Assembly (NCBI GenBank): GCA_017454075.1
Contig: JAFTDQ010000079.1
Location: 1-9,886 of the forward strand
Direction: 5' to 3'
DNA length: 9,886 bases
From: Clostridia bacterium
GTDB taxonomy: Bacteria > Bacillota_A > Clostridia > Oscillospirales > CAG-272
The notes below the pieces were generated by a model, which did not search any database, was not told the origin of the DNA, and saw nothing but the letters and a program-made list of their open reading frames with translations. Positions 1 to 8,456 of this stretch are shown here, piece by piece. The translations under genes and the position numbers were made by a program. Numbering within the stretch: the stretch's first letter is position 1; each line of letters begins with the position of its first letter.

Positions 1-2019
1 CATGCTTTCGATATGGAGCTTCAGACCGTTTTCAGATACCCCGTCCGCGGCTACCTTGAAGGTGATATAGCCGGGCTCTGATGGGTTTCCGACCCTGAGA
101 ACGCCGTTTTTCGTATCGTAAACCGCGTTTGCGGATTCCGTCACCCCGTAAATCTTTTTCCAGTCGCCGACCGACACGTCACGGTTAAAATTCGCGTCGA
201 GCAGCGGAACGTCGTAATGATTGACCGTATACGTGGCTTTTTCGTTACCTATCGAGTCAAGATCGGCTATTATTTTCGCCGTTCCGTATGAGGTCGAGTC
301 ATTAAAGAGAGTGAGATATTCGAATCCGAGCTCATACGCCTTTCGTAAAAGGCCGCGCCTCCCCGTAAGATCCGTCGACCTGCTGTACGATACCTCGAAA
401 TTGACCGTTCCTATCCTGCCGTAGGCAGCCTTGTACTGATAGAATCTCGGGTCATCCCACCACATATCCTCGGAGCTCGAGTACATTCCGTCGCCGACGC
501 CGGATTTCCATCCCGAGGCGAGCATATCGCCGTAAGCGGGGCTTCTCTCGGCCCACTGAACTCCGTGAGTCAGAAGGTTGTCGGCTGTCTGTTCCGTCGG
601 ATAACGCACGTTTGCCCCCGATACGATTATCGAATCGCTGCCGAGAGCGCGGTTATACGCGTCCGCAAGCTCCTGAAAATAATCGGCGTGATGCTTTATC
701 ATCCAGAGCTTTTCCGTTCGGCTGAGCCCGTCCGTCGGGTCGAGATCAACGCCGTCCGCCGCCGCGAGCGCCTTCATGAGCGGGCCGAAATCCGCGCAGT
801 CGAGAGCGTTGAAAGTCACGCCGACCGAGCTCTCCGGTCCTTTATAGCAGACGCCGTGCTCAATTACTACGGCGACTCTGCCGTCGAATCTGCCGTTTGC
901 CCTCGCCTGCCCTACTATTCCCCCGATCCTTTTGAACACGCTCTCGATTTTTGACGTAAAAGCGCCGTTAAGCACGTCGCTTGCCGAAGTTATCCAGACC
1001 GTGCTGCCGTAAACGTTCGGCACGGAACCGTAATACCGGCCGTCGAGACTGTTGAATGCGATCTGCTGATACTTTGCGTCGGTCATCATCCCGCTCTGCC
1101 CGTCCGGCAGATTCGGCTGTCCCCAGTATACCGTCGGCATGAGCTGGATATCCCAGCCGTTTTCACCGGCGGCGTTCAGCATCAGGATCACAGACGACGT
1201 GATCTCGTCCGGCGTTTTGTTCATGTAGTCAAGCTTGAAGAGCAGACCGAACCGGTAGAGATCGAAAGAAAATCCTTTGAAATCGTTTCTATGTTCGTAC
1301 GCTTTTTCAACGGAGTCGCTGCTGTGAAGATAAATACCGAGCCGGTCGTCGGCGCCCGACGCTCTGTTTGCCTCAAAAAGGCGGGTATATACCGTTACGT
1401 CGGATATCGAGAAAACAGCCCCCGATCCGCTTGTGATCCCCACCGTGACGTTTTCTAAGTCGATTATATCTTTTCTCGGAACGAGAACGTAAAGCACGTT
1501 CGGCGCCGACGCGATCTGCCCGTAAGTTCTGAAATAGACGTCCCTCCCGTCAACGCTGACGGTATAAGCGAACACTTCTTCGTTTTCACGGTGGATCTCT
1601 CTTATCGCGATAACGACGGGCTCCCCGGGATCCCGGGGCTCGGGGGAACTTATGTCGACGGTAAACTCGGCGGACGCGCCTTTTTCATTAAAATCTATAA
1701 CATTGAATATATCGGAGCGTGTGCCCGTTTCCGCCGTCAGGCTGCCGTGCGACGCCCCTCCCGAAAGACTTATCAGTTCGCTGTCGGCAGCGACAAAAGC
1801 GGCGATCGCCGGCTCCGCGCCCTCGGTCTTTATTACGATATCCGTTATATCCATCGCTTCGTGAGAGTCGGTATAGGTCGTCGCGGCTGCGCTCTCCGGA
1901 TGCCCGGTCGCCCGGCGATCCCCGATTCTGATAACAAGCGCGACCGTGACCGCCGCAAAAGCCGTGAGCAGGAAGATCAGAAATACGATCTTACCCGTCA
2001 TGCCGTTTTGTTCTTTCAT
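1..2019 (-). CDS. Large exported protein with possible glycoside-hydrolase-like barrel, C-terminus cut by window edge
   Basis: The reading frame is open from an ATG at 2019 to the window edge, giving 673 residues without a stop, so the C-terminus is missing. An in-frame TAA three codons upstream makes 2019 the earliest ATG, but no clear Shine-Dalgarno precedes it. Residues 10-31 (GKIVFLIFLLTAFAAVTVAL and on) form one hydrophobic segment, either an uncleaved anchor or a signal peptide, with the rest outside the cell. Residues about 100-215 are beta-rich. Residues about 225-600 alternate hydrophobic strands and helices like a TIM barrel, with aromatic and acidic stretches (LMPTVYWGQPNLPDG at 293-307, VVIEHGVCYKG at 384-394, SSSEDMWWDD at 514-523). 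Such patches suit a carbohydrate-active enzyme, but I cannot name a family or the catalytic acids. From about 605 a new beta-sandwich-like module begins (GDWKKIYG, GYITFKVAADG). The glycosidase role is inference. Confidence 0.72.
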   Translation of the reverse strand, partial: MKEQNGMTGKIVFLIFLLTAFAAVTVALVIRIGDRRATGHPESAAATTYTDSHEAMDITDIVIKTEGAEPAIAAFVAADSELISLSGGASHGSLTAETGTRSDIFNVIDFNEKGASAEFTVDISSPEPRDPGEPVVIAIREIHRENEEVFAYTVSVDGRDVYFRTYGQIASAPNVLYVLVPRKDIIDLENVTVGITSGSGAVFSISDVTVYTRLFEANRASGADDRLGIYLHSSDSVEKAYEHRNDFKGFSFDLYRFGLLFKLDYMNKTPDEITSSVILMLNAAGENGWDIQLMPTVYWGQPNLPDGQSGMMTDAKYQQIAFNSLDGRYYGSVPNVYGSTVWITSASDVLNGAFTSKIESVFKRIGGIVGQARANGRFDGRVAVVIEHGVCYKGPESSVGVTFNALDCADFGPLMKALAAADGVDLDPTDGLSRTEKLWMIKHHADYFQELADAYNRALGSDSIIVSGANVRYPTEQTADNLLTHGVQWAERSPAYGDMLASGWKSGVGDGMYSSSEDMWWDDPRFYQYKAAYGRIGTVNFEVSYSRSTDLTGRRGLLRKAYELGFEYLTLFNDSTSYGTAKIIADLDSIGNEKATYTVNHYDVPLLDANFNRDVSVGDWKKIYGVTESANAVYDTKNGVLRVGNPSEPGYITFKVAADGVSENGLKLHIESM

Positions 2020-2387: not shown

Positions 2388-4286
2388 TTATTCCAGATAC
2401 GCAAGCGGAAGAGCGTTCGTTCCGTCGGAAAGAGATATTTCAGCGACCGCGCCGTAATCATACGTTCCGTCGCTGTTCTTTGCAAACGTGCGGGCGTAGA
2501 GCGTGCCTGTCGGCATCTCCTGCCAGTAAACGGCGATGACGCTGTCGCCTTCCTCACCGCCGAGGTGTTCGGCGAGAATGATGTTTGAGCCGTAGCATCC
2601 GCTCTGGATGAAGCCGCCTGCGCTCTTTCCGTGGCCTTCCTCGGCAACGCGGATGAAGAGCGGCTTCGCGCCGGCTTCGCAGCTTGCTTCAGTGTCGGAG
2701 AAGATGATCCCGACCTGTCTCGTCTCGGACGCGCTGATAGCGGCGTTCAGATAGAGATGATCGATCTTGTCGTCGCCTGCCTCGTCGCTGATCGAAGCGA
2801 TGATTCCGGGAAGAGCGGGCGCGGCGGCCGGCTCGCCTTCGGTGGCGGTGAGCTTGAGTGCTGTGACTCCCATTCTCTGCGTAGTGCCCTGATCTGTGGA
2901 TTCCTCATATCCCCTATTCAGGAGGATTATGACGTAGATATCACGACTGTTAAGTGCCTTTACCGCATCATCGAGGTCAAGCTGTGTGCTGACAGGATTC
3001 TTGTGATTTCCAACGCCGGCAGTATCTGATGAAGTCAGAAGCGCGGCGTAATCATTCGCAGTAAAATCGTACGCTCCGTTTGCATCATGGGAGAATTCAT
3101 TTGCAACCCATACTCCAACCTGATAAAAACAGAGATTCCCAACCACTCTGAGATAATAACTTATGTCGACTTTCAGGCTGTCAACAACCTTTCCTTCGCC
3201 GGCTGAAAGCTTGTATGCAACGTAAGAGTTGTAAAGAGCGTTCTCGTTAGCAATATTTTCAGGCTGTGCGCCAAACCTTACGTTTCCGTTATCGGTATTT
3301 ATTGTATTGTCAGGATCAAGGTCGTAATTTGCCGTTGACATCCCCTTCAGCGGGATGAGCGCGTTGTTAACGCTTCCGTTGCCGACCGTAACATTGTGAA
3401 CGTAGAAGGCCTTGATTGCCGCGGGATCAGCCTGTTTTGTGTAATCATCAGTAACAGTCGCCGCGGCTATCCCGGCATTGATCGACAGGACTGAATCACC
3501 GGCGCCCTCATCTTCCTTCTGAGTGGCCGAAAAGGCAAGAGAATAAAGTCTGACACGGGCGAGGTCAGAAGCGCCGCGCATAAGCACTACGATTACGTAA
3601 ACCTCCGACGTATCGGAAAGCTTTTTAACGGCGTTGGTGAGATCTACTGTCATAGGACCGTCCTTTGAGGCCCTCATATCGACGTTGGCGGTGCTTACGG
3701 AACGGTCGTTTCCGCACAGCACTGTGCCGAGAACGCTGTCAGAAAAATCAAATTCTCCGGTTGTAGTATTGACGCCGGCGTCAAAATCATCGGTGACAAA
3801 CAGACCGATCTCGCTGCGCACGTGATTGAAAGGTGCAAGGATATACTCGAGATCAACCGTAAGCTGGTCGATAGCCATACCTGAATCGGCGCTGATTTTA
3901 TATGCGACGTATGGATTGTAAACGACTCTCGAAGAATGTCCGAGTTCCGTTCCCTCGGGCTTGACTCCCGGGAACATGGCGTTTGTTCCGTATGTGGAGG
4001 GAGTATTGGGATCGAGACTGTATCTCTCTGATTTGATATCGTCAACCGGGGTAAGGCACCTTCCGTTGCTGTTGGCGATACCGATAAGATGCGTGGCGTA
4101 CGCGCCGATCTTGTCGGCTGCAAGCTCGTTTGCAGTATCGATCGCGATCGACGTCATACCGTTAAAGTTATACGTCAGGCTGATATTGTTGCTTGCCGCC
4201 GCCCCTCCCGTTACCGAGAGGAACGTGAAGCATGAGGCTATCATTGATAGCGTGACGATAACCGAAATTATCTTTCTTGTTTTCAT
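2388..4286 (-). CDS. Secreted 632-residue protein with two copies of an unrecognised repeat domain plus a C-terminal beta domain
   Basis: The ATG at 4286 follows AAAGGAG at a 6-base spacing. Residues 1-31 form a signal peptide: MKTRK, a hydrophobic core, then GGAAAS as a likely cleavage region. Residues about 35-257 and 264-482 are two divergent copies of the domain duplicated in the neighbouring 500-residue protein. Shared motifs include a YxLDPN element (Y89, Y321), YNPYVAYK or YNSYVAYK (133-140, 352-359), paired hydrophobic strands near 141-150 and 368-380, GVWVANEFSHDANGAYDFTA in copy 2 (391-410), and VKKLSDTSEVYVIVVLMRG (220-238) or VKALNSRDIYVIILLNRG (442-459). Residues about 492-632 are a different beta-rich module ending in TLYARTFAKNSDGTYDYG with two cysteines (C536, C564). 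There is no C-terminal anchor or sorting motif, so it is probably released. Function is unknown; a binding module for carbohydrate is a guess from the beta-sandwich pattern. It lies 51 bases after the anchored paralogue, apparently in one operon. Confidence 0.88.
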   Translation of the reverse strand: MKTRKIISVIVTLSMIASCFTFLSVTGGAAASNNISLTYNFNGMTSIAIDTANELAADKIGAYATHLIGIANSNGRCLTPVDDIKSERYSLDPNTPSTYGTNAMFPGVKPEGTELGHSSRVVYNPYVAYKISADSGMAIDQLTVDLEYILAPFNHVRSEIGLFVTDDFDAGVNTTTGEFDFSDSVLGTVLCGNDRSVSTANVDMRASKDGPMTVDLTNAVKKLSDTSEVYVIVVLMRGASDLARVRLYSLAFSATQKEDEGAGDSVLSINAGIAAATVTDDYTKQADPAAIKAFYVHNVTVGNGSVNNALIPLKGMSTANYDLDPDNTINTDNGNVRFGAQPENIANENALYNSYVAYKLSAGEGKVVDSLKVDISYYLRVVGNLCFYQVGVWVANEFSHDANGAYDFTANDYAALLTSSDTAGVGNHKNPVSTQLDLDDAVKALNSRDIYVIILLNRGYEESTDQGTTQRMGVTALKLTATEGEPAAAPALPGIIASISDEAGDDKIDHLYLNAAISASETRQVGIIFSDTEASCEAGAKPLFIRVAEEGHGKSAGGFIQSGCYGSNIILAEHLGGEEGDSVIAVYWQEMPTGTLYARTFAKNSDGTYDYGAVAEISLSDGTNALPLAYLE

Positions 4287-4306
4287 TTGTTTCTCCTTTA
4301 TTTTTT

Positions 4307-4320
4307 GTCCCCGGAGGGAC
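4307..4320 (-). other. Small hairpin between the two repeat-protein genes
   Basis: GTCCC and GGGAC pair around TCCG (minus strand 4320-4307) in the 51-base gap between the two repeat-protein genes. The hairpin sits just upstream of the ribosome binding site of the 632-residue gene. It is followed by A residues rather than U on the transcribed strand, so it is not an intrinsic terminator. It is short and may be chance or may tune translation or mRNA decay. Confidence 0.3.
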
Positions 4321-4337
4321 TTATTACTCTGTCGGAT

Positions 4338-5840
4338 TCAGTCCGCTTTGCGGCGGATCTTTGTGACGGCGGGCAGAACGAGCGCGCAGAACACGGCGCC
4401 GGCGACCGCGGCGGACACCGTGGGATCGGAGGTCGCGGCGGACGCGATCTTCTGGGTGGCCTTAAGGGCCATATCCTGTATCCTTATCCTTCCGCCCGCA
4501 GCCGAGTTGTCCGCTCCGCGGATGAGCAGGATGATAACGTACACGTCCCTGCTGTTCAGTTTTTTGACGGCACTGCTGAGATCGATGACCTCCGCCTCGC
4601 CCCTGTGATCGTTTGCCTCGCCCTCTCCCGAGGTGAGGAGCTTTGCGTACGGCCTGGCCGTGAAATCAAAGGCCCCATTTGCGTCATGCTCGAATTTGTC
4701 GGTCACCCAGATCCCTATCTGATAATAGGCCTGGTTGTGTCCCGCAAGATAGTACCTTATATCGAGCTCAAGCGTGTCGATAACGTTGCCCCTGTCGCCG
4801 GCTATCTTATACGCGACGTAGGGATTGAAGACCTTGTCATTGCCTTCCGTGTTCTCCGGCTGGGCCCCGAGCTTTATCTTCCTGAGGGTCCCTCCGGCGT
4901 CCGGCACTTCCTCCGGGCCGTTCGGATCGAGATTGTACTGTGAAGTCGTCTGTCCGTCTGCAGGAGCGAGCGCCATGTTACCGCTTATCGTCGTAACGAC
5001 GCAGTTGTGATTATAGAAAGCGCCGATGTCGTTTATTCTCGAAGACGACGGAATGTTTGCGTTGATTACGACGTCCTCCCCCTGCTTTATCACGGCGCCG
5101 CCCGACGAACCGCCGGACTGCTTCGCCTTCCGGGTGGCGGTGATGGTGAAGTCCTGAATTCTTATACGCCCGCCCGCCGCGCTGTTGTCAGCTCCGCGGA
5201 TCATGAGGAAAATGACGTAAATATCTTCGCTGTTGAGCTTTCTGACGTCGTCGGTCAGGTCGATATGTTCGGTGTCCTCCGCCCTTCTGTGATCGGCGGC
5301 ATTCGTTTCGTCGGACGTCAGGAGCTTTGCGTAGGGCTGAGCCGTGAAGTCGTACGCTCCGTTTTCATCGTGTTCGAACTTATCGGTGACCCAGATGCCG
5401 ATCTGATAATACGCGTGGTTGTGCTGTCTGAGGTAGTACCTCATATCGATCGAAAGGGTGTCGATGACCTTCCCTTTCTCACCCCCTACTTTATATGCGA
5501 CGTAGGGATTGTAGAGCGCGTTCTGCTCGGATATGTTCTCCGGCATTGCGCCAAGCTTGATCGCCTTGCCGTCATATTCCGCGGGGCCGTTCGGATCGAG
5601 ATTGTACTGTGAAGTTGTCTGTCCGTCGGCCGGGGCGAGCGCCATGTTGCCGCTTATCGTCGTGACGACGCAGTTGTGAACGTAATAAGCGCCGATCCCG
5701 TTAACGTCCGTTGCCGACGGGATGTTCGCGCTTATCGTGATCTCGCTTTCTCCTCCGGCGTCATCTTCCGCATACGCGAAAACGGCCGTCAGCGACAGGA
5801 CAAGCGCCGCCGCGAGGATAAGACCTGTCAGTTTCTTCAT
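4338..5840 (-). CDS. Membrane-anchored 500-residue exported protein made of two near-duplicate unrecognised domains
   Basis: The start is the ATG at 5840, where AGGAG (5850-5846) lies 5 bases upstream. An in-frame ATG 24 bases earlier lacks such a site and would precede the signal peptide. Residues 1-24 (MKKLTGLILAAALVLSLTAV, then FAYA) are a classic signal peptide. Copy 1 spans about 33-239 and copy 2 about 256-464, joined by a Gly/Ser linker (QSGGSSGGA, 241-249). The copies share a 30-residue identical block (57-86 and 280-309, starting at a cysteine) and the motifs NPYVAYK, YYQIGIWVTDKFEHD and RGADNSAAGGRIRIQD. Residues about 474-493 are a hydrophobic segment followed by KIRRKAD, a stop-transfer anchor, so both domains face outside. 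The first gene of the cluster, it has its own promoter and structured leader. I do not recognise the domain; the beta-rich pattern suits a ligand-binding sandwich, which is inference. Confidence 0.9.
   Translation of the reverse strand: MKKLTGLILAAALVLSLTAVFAYAEDDAGGESEITISANIPSATDVNGIGAYYVHNCVVTTISGNMALAPADGQTTSQYNLDPNGPAEYDGKAIKLGAMPENISEQNALYNPYVAYKVGGEKGKVIDTLSIDMRYYLRQHNHAYYQIGIWVTDKFEHDENGAYDFTAQPYAKLLTSDETNAADHRRAEDTEHIDLTDDVRKLNSEDIYVIFLMIRGADNSAAGGRIRIQDFTITATRKAKQSGGSSGGAVIKQGEDVVINANIPSSSRINDIGAFYNHNCVVTTISGNMALAPADGQTTSQYNLDPNGPEEVPDAGGTLRKIKLGAQPENTEGNDKVFNPYVAYKIAGDRGNVIDTLELDIRYYLAGHNQAYYQIGIWVTDKFEHDANGAFDFTARPYAKLLTSGEGEANDHRGEAEVIDLSSAVKKLNSRDVYVIILLIRGADNSAAGGRIRIQDMALKATQKIASAATSDPTVSAAVAGAVFCALVLPAVTKIRRKAD
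4449..5075 (-). repeat. Domain-encoding repeat, copy 2 (anchored protein)
   Basis: This encodes residues about 256-464 of the anchored protein. It is a tandem duplicate of 5124-5744. The most similar block is 4915-5010, which matches 5584-5679 at 90 of 96 bases by direct alignment. All six differences are synonymous because the encoded 30 residues are identical. Copy 2 has a short insertion after the LDPNGP motif (EEVPDAGGTLRK compared with AEYDGKA). Confidence 0.85.
5124..5744 (-). repeat. Domain-encoding repeat, copy 1 (anchored protein)
   Basis: This encodes residues about 33-239 of the anchored protein. It is the partner of 4449-5075 at an offset of 669 bases (223 codons) over the most conserved block. 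More divergent versions of the same domain are encoded at about 3516-4184 and 2841-3497 in the next gene, giving four copies in two genes. Confidence 0.85.
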
Positions 5841-5958: not shown

Positions 5959-5987
5959 ATTATATTCGCGGTGCGGCATTTTTTCAA
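5959..5987 (-). promoter_or_regulatory. Promoter of the surface-protein cluster
   Basis: Read on the minus strand, TTGAAA (5987-5982) and a perfect TATAAT (5964-5959) are separated by 17 bases, which is near-consensus for the vegetative sigma factor. It leaves a 5' leader of about 110 bases before the ATG at 5840. The intergenic region is shared with the divergent AraC-type gene. Confidence 0.75.
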
Positions 5988-6098: not shown

Positions 6099-6137
6099 AT
6101 ACACATCAAAAATCCATATACTGAAAGGATGCGAACT

Positions 6138-6995
6138 ATGCCCTACAAAGTTCCAGACATTTTTGTCAGCCAGGACAACACCGATCCCTATCTCAGCTTT
6201 GTCCAGGCGGGCAGCGAACAGTGCGCCCCCTCGTACTGCTACGGACCTGCCGTCCGTGATTTCTATCTCATTCACTTCATTTCGTCCGGCTCCGGAGAAT
6301 ATCAGATCGGTGAAATGACCTATCGCGTCGACGCCGGCGAGGCGTTTATAGTATATCCCGGAGAGCCCGTCACCTACAAGGCCGACAAGAGATATCCCTG
6401 GGCGTACAGCTTTATCGGTCTCCGCGGCTCAATGGTCGAGTCTCTCATCGAGCGTACCGCGTTCGCCGGACACAAATACGTCGTCAGAGTACGCAATCCC
6501 GAGATCTTCGACGTTATCAACGAGATCGCCAACGAGATAAACGCAAACGCCGACATGCCAAACAAGGACCTTTACGCGCTTGAGCGCGCGATCCGCGTCA
6601 TGCGCGTTCTCATCGACGAGTCGGGCGACTCTCAGAAGGAAGTCCACGTCCTCAACGCCTACGTTTCAAAGGCGATCGGTTATATCCAGGAGCATTACGC
6701 CGAGGATATGAACATCGGATCGGTTGCAGAGTCTCTCAATATCAACCGCTCATATTTCTTCCGTCTGTTCAAGGATGAGACCGGACTTGCCCCGATACAG
6801 TATCTCAGCAGATACCGCGTTATGATGGCACGCAAGCTTCTCATCGAGACGGAGACCCCCGTTTCCGAGATAGCCGGTCTCTGCGGCTTCACGACCGCCT
6901 CGGCCTTCTACCGTATGTTCAATATCGAGTACGGAACGTCACCGAGCAAATACCGCAAGCTTTACAGAAAGCACACAAAGGGCCTTCCGGGCTGA
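6138..6995 (+). CDS. AraC-family transcriptional regulator with N-terminal cupin-type sensor domain
   Basis: The ATG at 6138 is preferred because AAAGGA (6124-6129) lies 8 bases upstream; the in-frame ATG at 6129 overlaps that site. The 285-residue product matches the usual AraC/XylS length. Residues about 35-100 form the cupin-like ligand-binding half (FYLIHFISSGSGEYQIG, then AGEAFIVYPGEPVTYKAD). Residues about 175-280 form the DNA-binding half with two helix-turn-helix units: IGSVAESLNINRSYFFRLFK (193-212) and VSEIAGLCGFTTASAFYRMF (242-261). The ending GTSPSKYRKLYR is family-typical. Such regulators often respond to sugars and activate an adjacent divergent operon. Given the shared intergenic region, its likely targets are the surface-protein cluster on the minus strand and its own gene. 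The ligand is unknown. A strong terminator follows. Confidence 0.93.
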   Translation: MPYKVPDIFVSQDNTDPYLSFVQAGSEQCAPSYCYGPAVRDFYLIHFISSGSGEYQIGEMTYRVDAGEAFIVYPGEPVTYKADKRYPWAYSFIGLRGSMVESLIERTAFAGHKYVVRVRNPEIFDVINEIANEINANADMPNKDLYALERAIRVMRVLIDESGDSQKEVHVLNAYVSKAIGYIQEHYAEDMNIGSVAESLNINRSYFFRLFKDETGLAPIQYLSRYRVMMARKLLIETETPVSEIAGLCGFTTASAFYRMFNIEYGTSPSKYRKLYRKHTKGLPG

Positions 6996-7112: not shown

Positions 7113-8456
7113 ATGAAAAAAGAAAAACCGGCGCCAAAGACAAAACCGACTCTTCAGGAAAAGCTCGCGGCGAGAAAATACCGCTCCCCGGGGAAGGCCG
7201 TCACCTGGACGTATCACCTTCTCGGCACGACGGCGCTCCTGCCGAAATACGCTCCTCATTTCACTTATGACGACGAGCTTCCGGAAAAAGGCCCCTTCAT
7301 CCTCGTCTGGAATCACCTTTCCCGGGTCGATCATCTGTTCACTATGAAGGCGCTCTATCCCCTGAGCTACAATATGGTGGCGGGATACAACGAGTTTTTC
7401 CGCAGCCACCTTCAGACGGTGTTCAGACTCAACCGGATACTTCCGAAAAAAATATACGAACAGGACATCCCGGGTATCAAGGCGATGAATTCGATCCTCC
7501 GCAAGGGCGGCGTCGTCACCTTCTCGCCCGAGGGTATGAGCTCCATTTACGGGACGAATCAGCCGGTCGTCCCCGGCTCGGGGAGGTTTATTCAGTTCTT
7601 CCGTGTCCCTGTCTACTGCCTTGAACTGAGAGGACAGTACCTCACGACGACGAAGCATTATCTCGAGGAGAGAAAGGGCCGCACCGAGGCGCGTCTCTAC
7701 AAGCTCTTTTCCCCGGAAGATCTCGAGAGGATGACCCCCGACGAGATAGACCTTAAACTGAACGAGGCCTTCCGCCACGACGAGTTTGAGTGGACGAGGC
7801 AAAGGCACATAAAATGGAACATGCACGGGCGGAGCTGCGAACACCTCGACGAGCTCTGCTACCGCTGTCCGCGCTGCGGCTCCGAGCTTTCAATGACAGC
7901 CGAAAAAGACCGCATATTCTGCCGTGAATGCGGCAACGGCGCGGTCCTTAACGATTACTATGAATTCGAACCCTTCGACGGCGACTGCGTCATTCCCGTT
8001 TCATCGTCAAAATGGGTGGAAGAGGAAAGGATCGACGTCATTCATAAAATCAGGGAAGATCCCGGTTATTCGTTTACCGAGAAAGTCTCGCTCGGATATC
8101 TTCCCCCGTACAGCTACGTGAAACACAAGAAAAACAGCGTCCCGTGCGGCGGCGGAGAGATCACCTTCGATCACTCGGGGATACATTTCCGAGGCACCCG
8201 TCACGGGGAGCCGTGGGAATTCGATCTCGGATGGAAGACCGTCTTCTCGCTCGTCATCACGACGACGACGGCGCAGTTCGCGCTTTACGTGAACGGAGAG
8301 TTTTACGAGTTCATTCCCGAGCGCCGCTCGGTCGGCAAGATGCTCCTTATAACCGAGGAGATGCACCGCCTGCACTATAACGTCTGGAAAAACTTCCCGT
8401 GGAACGACCGGATGTACGAGGGTCTTCCGCTCGGCGTCGACGCCGAAAACAAATAA
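7113..8456 (+). CDS. PlsC-type acyltransferase with zinc ribbon and beta-rich C-terminal domain
   Basis: The ATG at 7113 is chosen over an in-frame ATG at 7008 because AGGGAGG (7098-7104) lies 8 bases upstream and the earlier one falls inside the terminator. The 447-residue product is about twice the usual PlsC length. Residues about 30-200 carry the acyltransferase hallmarks: NHLSRVD (67-73), the catalytic H-x4-D with H68 and D73, and FSPEG (137-141), the glycerol-phosphate-binding block. Residues 252-273 form a four-cysteine zinc ribbon (C252-x2-C255, C270-x2-C273), with C249 nearby. Residues about 340-425 are beta-rich ending in a helix, reminiscent of PH/GRAM-like folds. Family knowledge suggests transfer of an acyl chain to lysophosphatidate or a related lipid at the inner membrane face; the true acceptor is not evident. 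There is no clear membrane helix. It has its own promoter and terminator, so it is monocistronic. Confidence 0.87.
   Translation: MKKEKPAPKTKPTLQEKLAARKYRSPGKAVTWTYHLLGTTALLPKYAPHFTYDDELPEKGPFILVWNHLSRVDHLFTMKALYPLSYNMVAGYNEFFRSHLQTVFRLNRILPKKIYEQDIPGIKAMNSILRKGGVVTFSPEGMSSIYGTNQPVVPGSGRFIQFFRVPVYCLELRGQYLTTTKHYLEERKGRTEARLYKLFSPEDLERMTPDEIDLKLNEAFRHDEFEWTRQRHIKWNMHGRSCEHLDELCYRCPRCGSELSMTAEKDRIFCRECGNGAVLNDYYEFEPFDGDCVIPVSSSKWVEEERIDVIHKIREDPGYSFTEKVSLGYLPPYSYVKHKKNSVPCGGGEITFDHSGIHFRGTRHGEPWEFDLGWKTVFSLVITTTTAQFALYVNGEFYEFIPERRSVGKMLLITEEMHRLHYNVWKNFPWNDRMYEGLPLGVDAENK

Follow-up and report, generated by a model that had tools for sequence, protein, structure and literature searches.

What does a domain do that stands four times in two adjacent genes of one bacterium? 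The question is raised by a 9,886-bp stretch of DNA from a Clostridia bacterium (contig JAFTDQ010000079.1; hereafter the window), whose genes A and B each encode two copies of a ~210-residue extracellular domain. This domain is a real family, new at the sequence level, whose glycan-type locus recurs among Clostridia relatives, and it most likely works like a carbohydrate-binding module (CBM) or a surface glycan-binding protein. In the specific form that we favour, and hold with slightly more confidence than doubt, the four copies lack catalytic activity and serve at the cell surface to capture glycans, as part of a Gram-positive sugar-utilisation locus.

Four copies of one domain in genes A and B

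Gene B (4338–5840, minus strand; 500 amino acids, ATG at 5840) and gene A (2388–4286, minus strand; 632 amino acids) lay head to tail with 51 bases between them. By hydropathy, both products began with a hydrophobic segment of signal-peptide type. B ended in a second hydrophobic segment with a basic tail (SAATSD...KIRRKAD; 4341–4433, minus strand), resembling a membrane anchor or sorting signal. Such a segment was absent from A, which closed with a C-terminal region of ~146 amino acids (2391–2828, minus strand) that matched no family and looked similar by eye to the end of a database relative, P0005. These features agree with a first-pass annotation of the window, in which two copies were taken to be anchored and two secreted.

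The copies B1 (5124–5744), B2 (4440–5069), A1 (3513–4190) and A2 (2829–3491), all on the minus strand, were 207–226 amino acids long, in line with the span of 2841–5744 in which four ~210-residue copies had first been placed. Local alignment against 200 shuffles per pair gave z = 129 for B1–B2, 26 for A1–A2 and 49–71 for the four A–B pairs, ruling out chance similarity over all six pairs. Identities were 70% (B1–B2), 34–45% (A–B pairs) and 28% (A1–A2), A1 being the most divergent of the four. The motif strings that had been listed as common elements are composites, and no string is exact in all four copies: YxLDPN occurs in three, F/LGAQPEN, YNPYVAYK and GxVIDxLxxD in two each, and the long YQIGIWVTD... 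string and LNSxDVYVIILLxRG in one each.

Two further elements were seen on the minus strand beside these genes: an inverted repeat, GTCCC-TCCG-GGGAC, spotted by eye between B and A (4307–4320), and a reading frame of 67 amino acids directly after gene A (2177–2380), behind AAGGAGGAC, in which no signal peptide was seen.

A family of Clostridia relatives and its predicted fold

A and B gave nothing above the curated cut-offs of Pfam and NCBIfam and only matches of E 0.036 or weaker in PHROGs, and neither B nor the domain profile matched a PDB sequence. In particular, no Pfam match above cut-off to MAM, PAW or Eph ligand-binding domains was obtained for A or B. A known family under another name is ruled out in these four libraries, and the domain was rightly called unrecognised; no match to a characterised family was found. 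Among the open-licence papers listed by searches on the subject, no description of the family was seen, and a search by locus tags gave no paper.

Three protein searches, each scoring 7993–7996 candidates limited by length, returned 15 proteins, including P0001 and P0004, which are encoded by the window itself. The 13 further proteins rule out a restriction of the domain to the window's genome, and it also occurs in other genomes. An organism was given for four of them (three ‘Clostridia bacterium’, one ‘Ruminococcaceae bacterium’), and one, P0006, is a partial sequence. Together with the window and genomes G312 and G247, the set comprised 22 full and five short copies, which formed the 27 rows of a tree. 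Alignments A1, A3 and A7 held 10 copies, 11 rows and nine rows, respectively, and alignment A8 leaves out the window's domain copy A1, which MAFFT misplaced.

The short copies formed one tree group (support 100/100), lacked the N-terminal insert and resembled the full copies weakly (z 4 to 8). They were found in tail-anchored proteins, namely P0007, P0008, P0010 and the products of L082 340–1161 (minus strand) and L089 2786–3697 (plus strand); the latter two share a locus with full copies. In the tree, B1 and B2 grouped with copy 2 of P0002 and P0003 (99/98), and copy 1 of these two proteins fell outside. Because B1 groups with copy 2 rather than copy 1, the window's B has probably lost its original copy 1, either to a duplication of copy 2 or to conversion, as judged from the tree. 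The longest contig reported for P0003, P0005 and P0007 was 16605 bases in each case, so the three probably lie on one contig, which would then repeat the B–A pairing and add a third protein that combines one short copy with one full copy.

In the domain proteins, tails such as NPATSD, NPDTSD and APTGD preceded the last hydrophobic segment and resembled NPXTG sorting signals. The NCBIfam model for that signal (NF033846) gave no match for the window's B and 16.3 bits for the L089 relative, under the cut-off of 23.5. In P0009, one domain copy was followed by a type I dockerin (PF00404) at 21.4 bits, under the cut-off of 22.9, a hint in the sequence of cellulosome-like docking in one relative.

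The AlphaFold2 model of a single copy (B2) was a beta-sandwich, with a predicted local distance difference test score (pLDDT) of 88.0 and a predicted template modelling score (pTM) of 0.89, and B1 took the same fold in a two-domain model (pLDDT 72.8). The model and the fold comparison favour the beta-sandwich that had been suggested from the alternation of hydrophobic strands. At E ≤ 0.001, Foldseek matched three PDB entries: a chondroitin-sulfate CBM (8wab), modular Xyn30D (4qaw) and an alginate CBM (8zqf). Viral fold matches were weak (nine at E ≤ 0.001, TM-scores 0.20–0.38 over the query), and none of eight pattern stretches in viral contigs was confirmed as a domain relative; on this weak test, a phage origin was rejected.

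The regulator and the neighbouring genes

An AraC-family regulator (HTH_18 and AraC_binding; 6129–6995, plus strand) was encoded divergently from B. An orthologous AraC gene was divergent to the domain gene in all three readable loci (window, G247 and G312). The window's AraC found its best match in G247 in that very gene (298 bits, the next 59.5, among 15 matches) and likewise in G312 (230 bits, the next 63.9, among 16 matches), with identities of 47% and 38%, respectively. Comparison of the three AraC–domain intergenic stretches gave AT-rich matches and no element common to all three. The sequence GAAAAAATGCCGCA, at 5972–5985 of the window (minus strand) between AraC and B, is found again in inverted orientation in the L082 stretch, with one mismatch, and not in that of L089; this 14-base match is possibly a regulator site, or chance.

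In G247, the domain gene (288–293 amino acids, one copy, tail-anchored) was followed by a GDSL gene, two genes homologous to window 1–2019 and a short-variant gene, and on its other side stood a CBM_6 lipoprotein, a solute-binding-like lipoprotein (so labelled by eye), GH78 and GH27. In G312 the order was AraC, domain gene, short variant, solute-binding-like lipoprotein, GDSL, GH27 and FAD_oxidored. GH27 had one match in G247, seven in G312 (where two probably belong to a single frame) and two in G046, and G767 had none. The sole GH27 match of G247 lay ~7 kb from the domain gene; by an estimate made after the fact, a GH27 gene would fall within 10 kb in ~1% of chance placements in that genome.

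The genome surveys were centred on G004, located through a relative, 66% identical, of the window's acyltransferase gene (PF01553; 7008–8456, plus strand), which is followed by a zinc-ribbon-like stretch under cut-off. Domain profile A1 matched in one of 295 family genomes and profile A3 in two of nine in the genus of G247. Counts of 1/394 and 1/391 genomes are lower bounds; G312 was apparently among the 295 yet was missed by profile A1. A domain-profile scan of genome contigs gave 11 pattern stretches, none of them a relative, and none of 80 aldolase loci matched A, B or the gene at window 1–2019 at E ≤ 1e-5.

That gene (1–2019, minus strand, cut by the window edge) had been noted as a possible glycosidase. 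It encodes a large surface-tethered protein and would be a glycosidase on our reading. Relatives, all on the minus strand, were found in L082 (1204–4533 and 4537–7845; 1102 and 1109 amino acids), L090 (7887–11276; 1129 amino acids) and L095 (7303–11007; 1234 amino acids), with identities over the aligned part of 51% and 39% for the two L082 proteins, 41% for L090 and 22% for L095. A profile of these glycosidase-like proteins matched in 2/295, 1/35 and 3/391 genomes, the last count including one short stretch. GH27 stood 5 kb from the glycosidase-like gene in L090 and 10 kb in L082; the L095 gene adjoins ABC-transporter (ATP-binding cassette) genes, GH38, an SGNH-type gene and AraC.

The glycosidase-like proteins had no match in Pfam, NCBIfam or PDB (for L095, Pfam and PDB only), PDB sequence searches returning nothing or chance-level matches, and neither the window protein nor its relatives matched a recognised family of glycoside hydrolase clan A. 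Four Glu (window residues 141, 387, 436 and 542) and six Asp were invariant in all five sequences. Two of the Glu, 387 and 542, stand out by their surroundings, which read IENEPQ and VNIE in L095, the distant member, and IEHGVC and VNFE in the window; IENEPQ was present in L095 only. The motif Asn-Glu-Pro is a mark of clan A enzymes; it is not kept in the window, which reads IEHGVC where L095 has IENEPQ. With four invariant Glu, no library match and GH27 or GH38 in the vicinity, these proteins are a candidate new glycoside hydrolase family.

Possible roles of the modules

We propose that the modules would be extracellular, non-catalytic jelly-roll beta-sandwiches of a Gram-positive glycan-utilisation locus. 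B would be displayed on the cell surface through its C-terminal tail and A released, or retained by other means, and both would probably be controlled by the AraC regulator divergent to B. The tandem modules would keep a polysaccharide, whole or in fragments, on the cell surface. The glycan so held would be acted on by the tethered glycosidase-like protein encoded nearby, joined in relatives by enzymes of the GH27, GH78 and GDSL types. What was observed comprises the four copies, the predicted fold, the hydrophobic ends, the conserved link to the regulator and the carbohydrate-active neighbours in relatives; that the modules bind carbohydrate, which glycan they would bind, their control by AraC and their cooperation with the enzymes are inferred. 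The proposal is preferred because it explains the hydrophobic ends, the tandem copies, the fold, the regulator and the neighbours with the fewest assumptions. The expected neighbourhood of AraC and carbohydrate-active genes was indeed present around the domain genes of G247 and G312. The presence of GH27 and GH78 in relatives led us to a galactose- and rhamnose-bearing polysaccharide as substrate, a weak guess that is probably wrong.

Several observations weigh against glycan-holding modules. The three Foldseek matches had low TM-scores (0.26–0.36 over the query). No CBM model matched the domain proteins scanned with Pfam and NCBIfam, and no Pfam domain, catalytic or other, is listed for any of the 15 proteins, so that none is tied to an enzyme within one chain. 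The 9.9-kb window encodes neither a transporter nor any named glycoside hydrolase; of the glycosidase foreseen next to A and B it offers a gene of no recognised family. To the right of the window's AraC lay acyltransferase, beta-eliminating-lyase-type and tRNA_bind genes, which have no link to glycans. L090 and L095, the two loci outside G247 that contain a glycosidase-like gene, have no domain copy, which means that either family can be present without the other nearby. The GH27 neighbour in G312 weighs less because that genome has seven GH27 matches, and the solute-binding-like lipoproteins of L082 and L089 matched no Pfam family, that of L089 no PDB sequence either.

The most serious alternative is that the modules serve adhesion or docking by binding a protein partner rather than a glycan, on the host, a particle, another cell or the tethered enzyme; MAM and Eph domains do such work on the same fold. 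Among the best 50 rows of VIA-align, a list from which a family's absence does not exclude it, 40 were Eph (29), meprin or scavenger-receptor MAM (8) or reelin (3), nine were carbohydrate-related and one was a gingipain adhesin, and the surface tail of B would suit an adhesin. However, the protein-binder rows are many entries of few proteins, their Z-scores tie with those of PAW, CBM6E and legume lectins, and both G247 and G312 have carbohydrate-active genes next to the domain. The domains of the MAM, PNGase PAW, Eph ligand-binding and gingipain adhesin types share 5–12% identity in their VIA-align rows and differ in function (PAW binds mannose and Eph domains bind ephrins); MAM, PAW and Eph domains are tied to the window domain by fold only. 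An adhesive or docking role seems doubtful, if worth keeping in view.

Less probable still, the domains could be structural or spacer elements with no ligand of their own, to which the tandem copies, the anchored ends and a short variant without the N-terminal insert would lend themselves; the invariance of Tyr341 and Tyr344 of B and an aromatic residue at position 378 in all 22 full copies speak against this, though these could be core residues. That the domains are themselves catalytic is very improbable: nothing direct favours it, although enzymes do exist among jelly-roll proteins, one being PNGase F (in the Foldseek list for the two-domain model), and the only charged or His columns kept in at least 90% of the 22 copies (H278, D349, D392 and D420) form no recognisable catalytic set, nor did A or B match an enzyme family above cut-off in Pfam or NCBIfam.

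Glycan-holding modules may be compared with three known systems. Beta-sandwich CBMs (8wab, 8zqf and CBM6E, 8j3y) share with the domain a jelly-roll of similar size, an extracellular location and, in its relatives, carbohydrate-active genes nearby. Unlike them, the window domain has no sequence match to a CBM model, stands alone or in tandem rather than inside an enzyme, and is only predicted to bind; it is not classed as a CBM because searches for similarity to a CBM family and for an enzyme on the same chain both came up empty. Gram-positive polysaccharide utilisation loci (PULs) are defined by an enzyme, a transporter and a regulator (PMC5320581). The window contributes its AraC as the transcriptional regulator; as a polysaccharide-degrading enzyme it has only the unnamed glycosidase-like gene, where relatives have GH27 and GH78, and ABC-transporter genes occurred only in L095, a locus without a domain copy. 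The window's relatives resemble the Roseburia and E. rectale PULs, as described there, in uniting a regulator and degrading enzymes in one cluster; the 9.9-kb window differs in lacking a transporter and in having surface modules whose family is undescribed. Sas20 of Ruminococcus bromii, a non-catalytic surface protein with two binding domains unpredicted by sequence, offers a precedent for such binders, likened here by description alone; unlike the window proteins, it binds starch and is a member of the amylosome (PMC9112005).

A wider proposal would join these parts into an undescribed Clostridia glycan-capture system of two new families, tandem surface beta-sandwich binding modules (full and short) and large tethered glycosidases without library relatives, under one dedicated AraC and with a galactose- and rhamnose-bearing target; taken whole, it is possible but rather unlikely. 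A recurring, sequence-new surface module with its regulator and, in relatives, glycan enzymes is a small and concrete target for work on how such bacteria keep hold of polysaccharides, and the glycosidase-like proteins linked to it may represent an enzyme family of their own, new and perhaps of equal interest.

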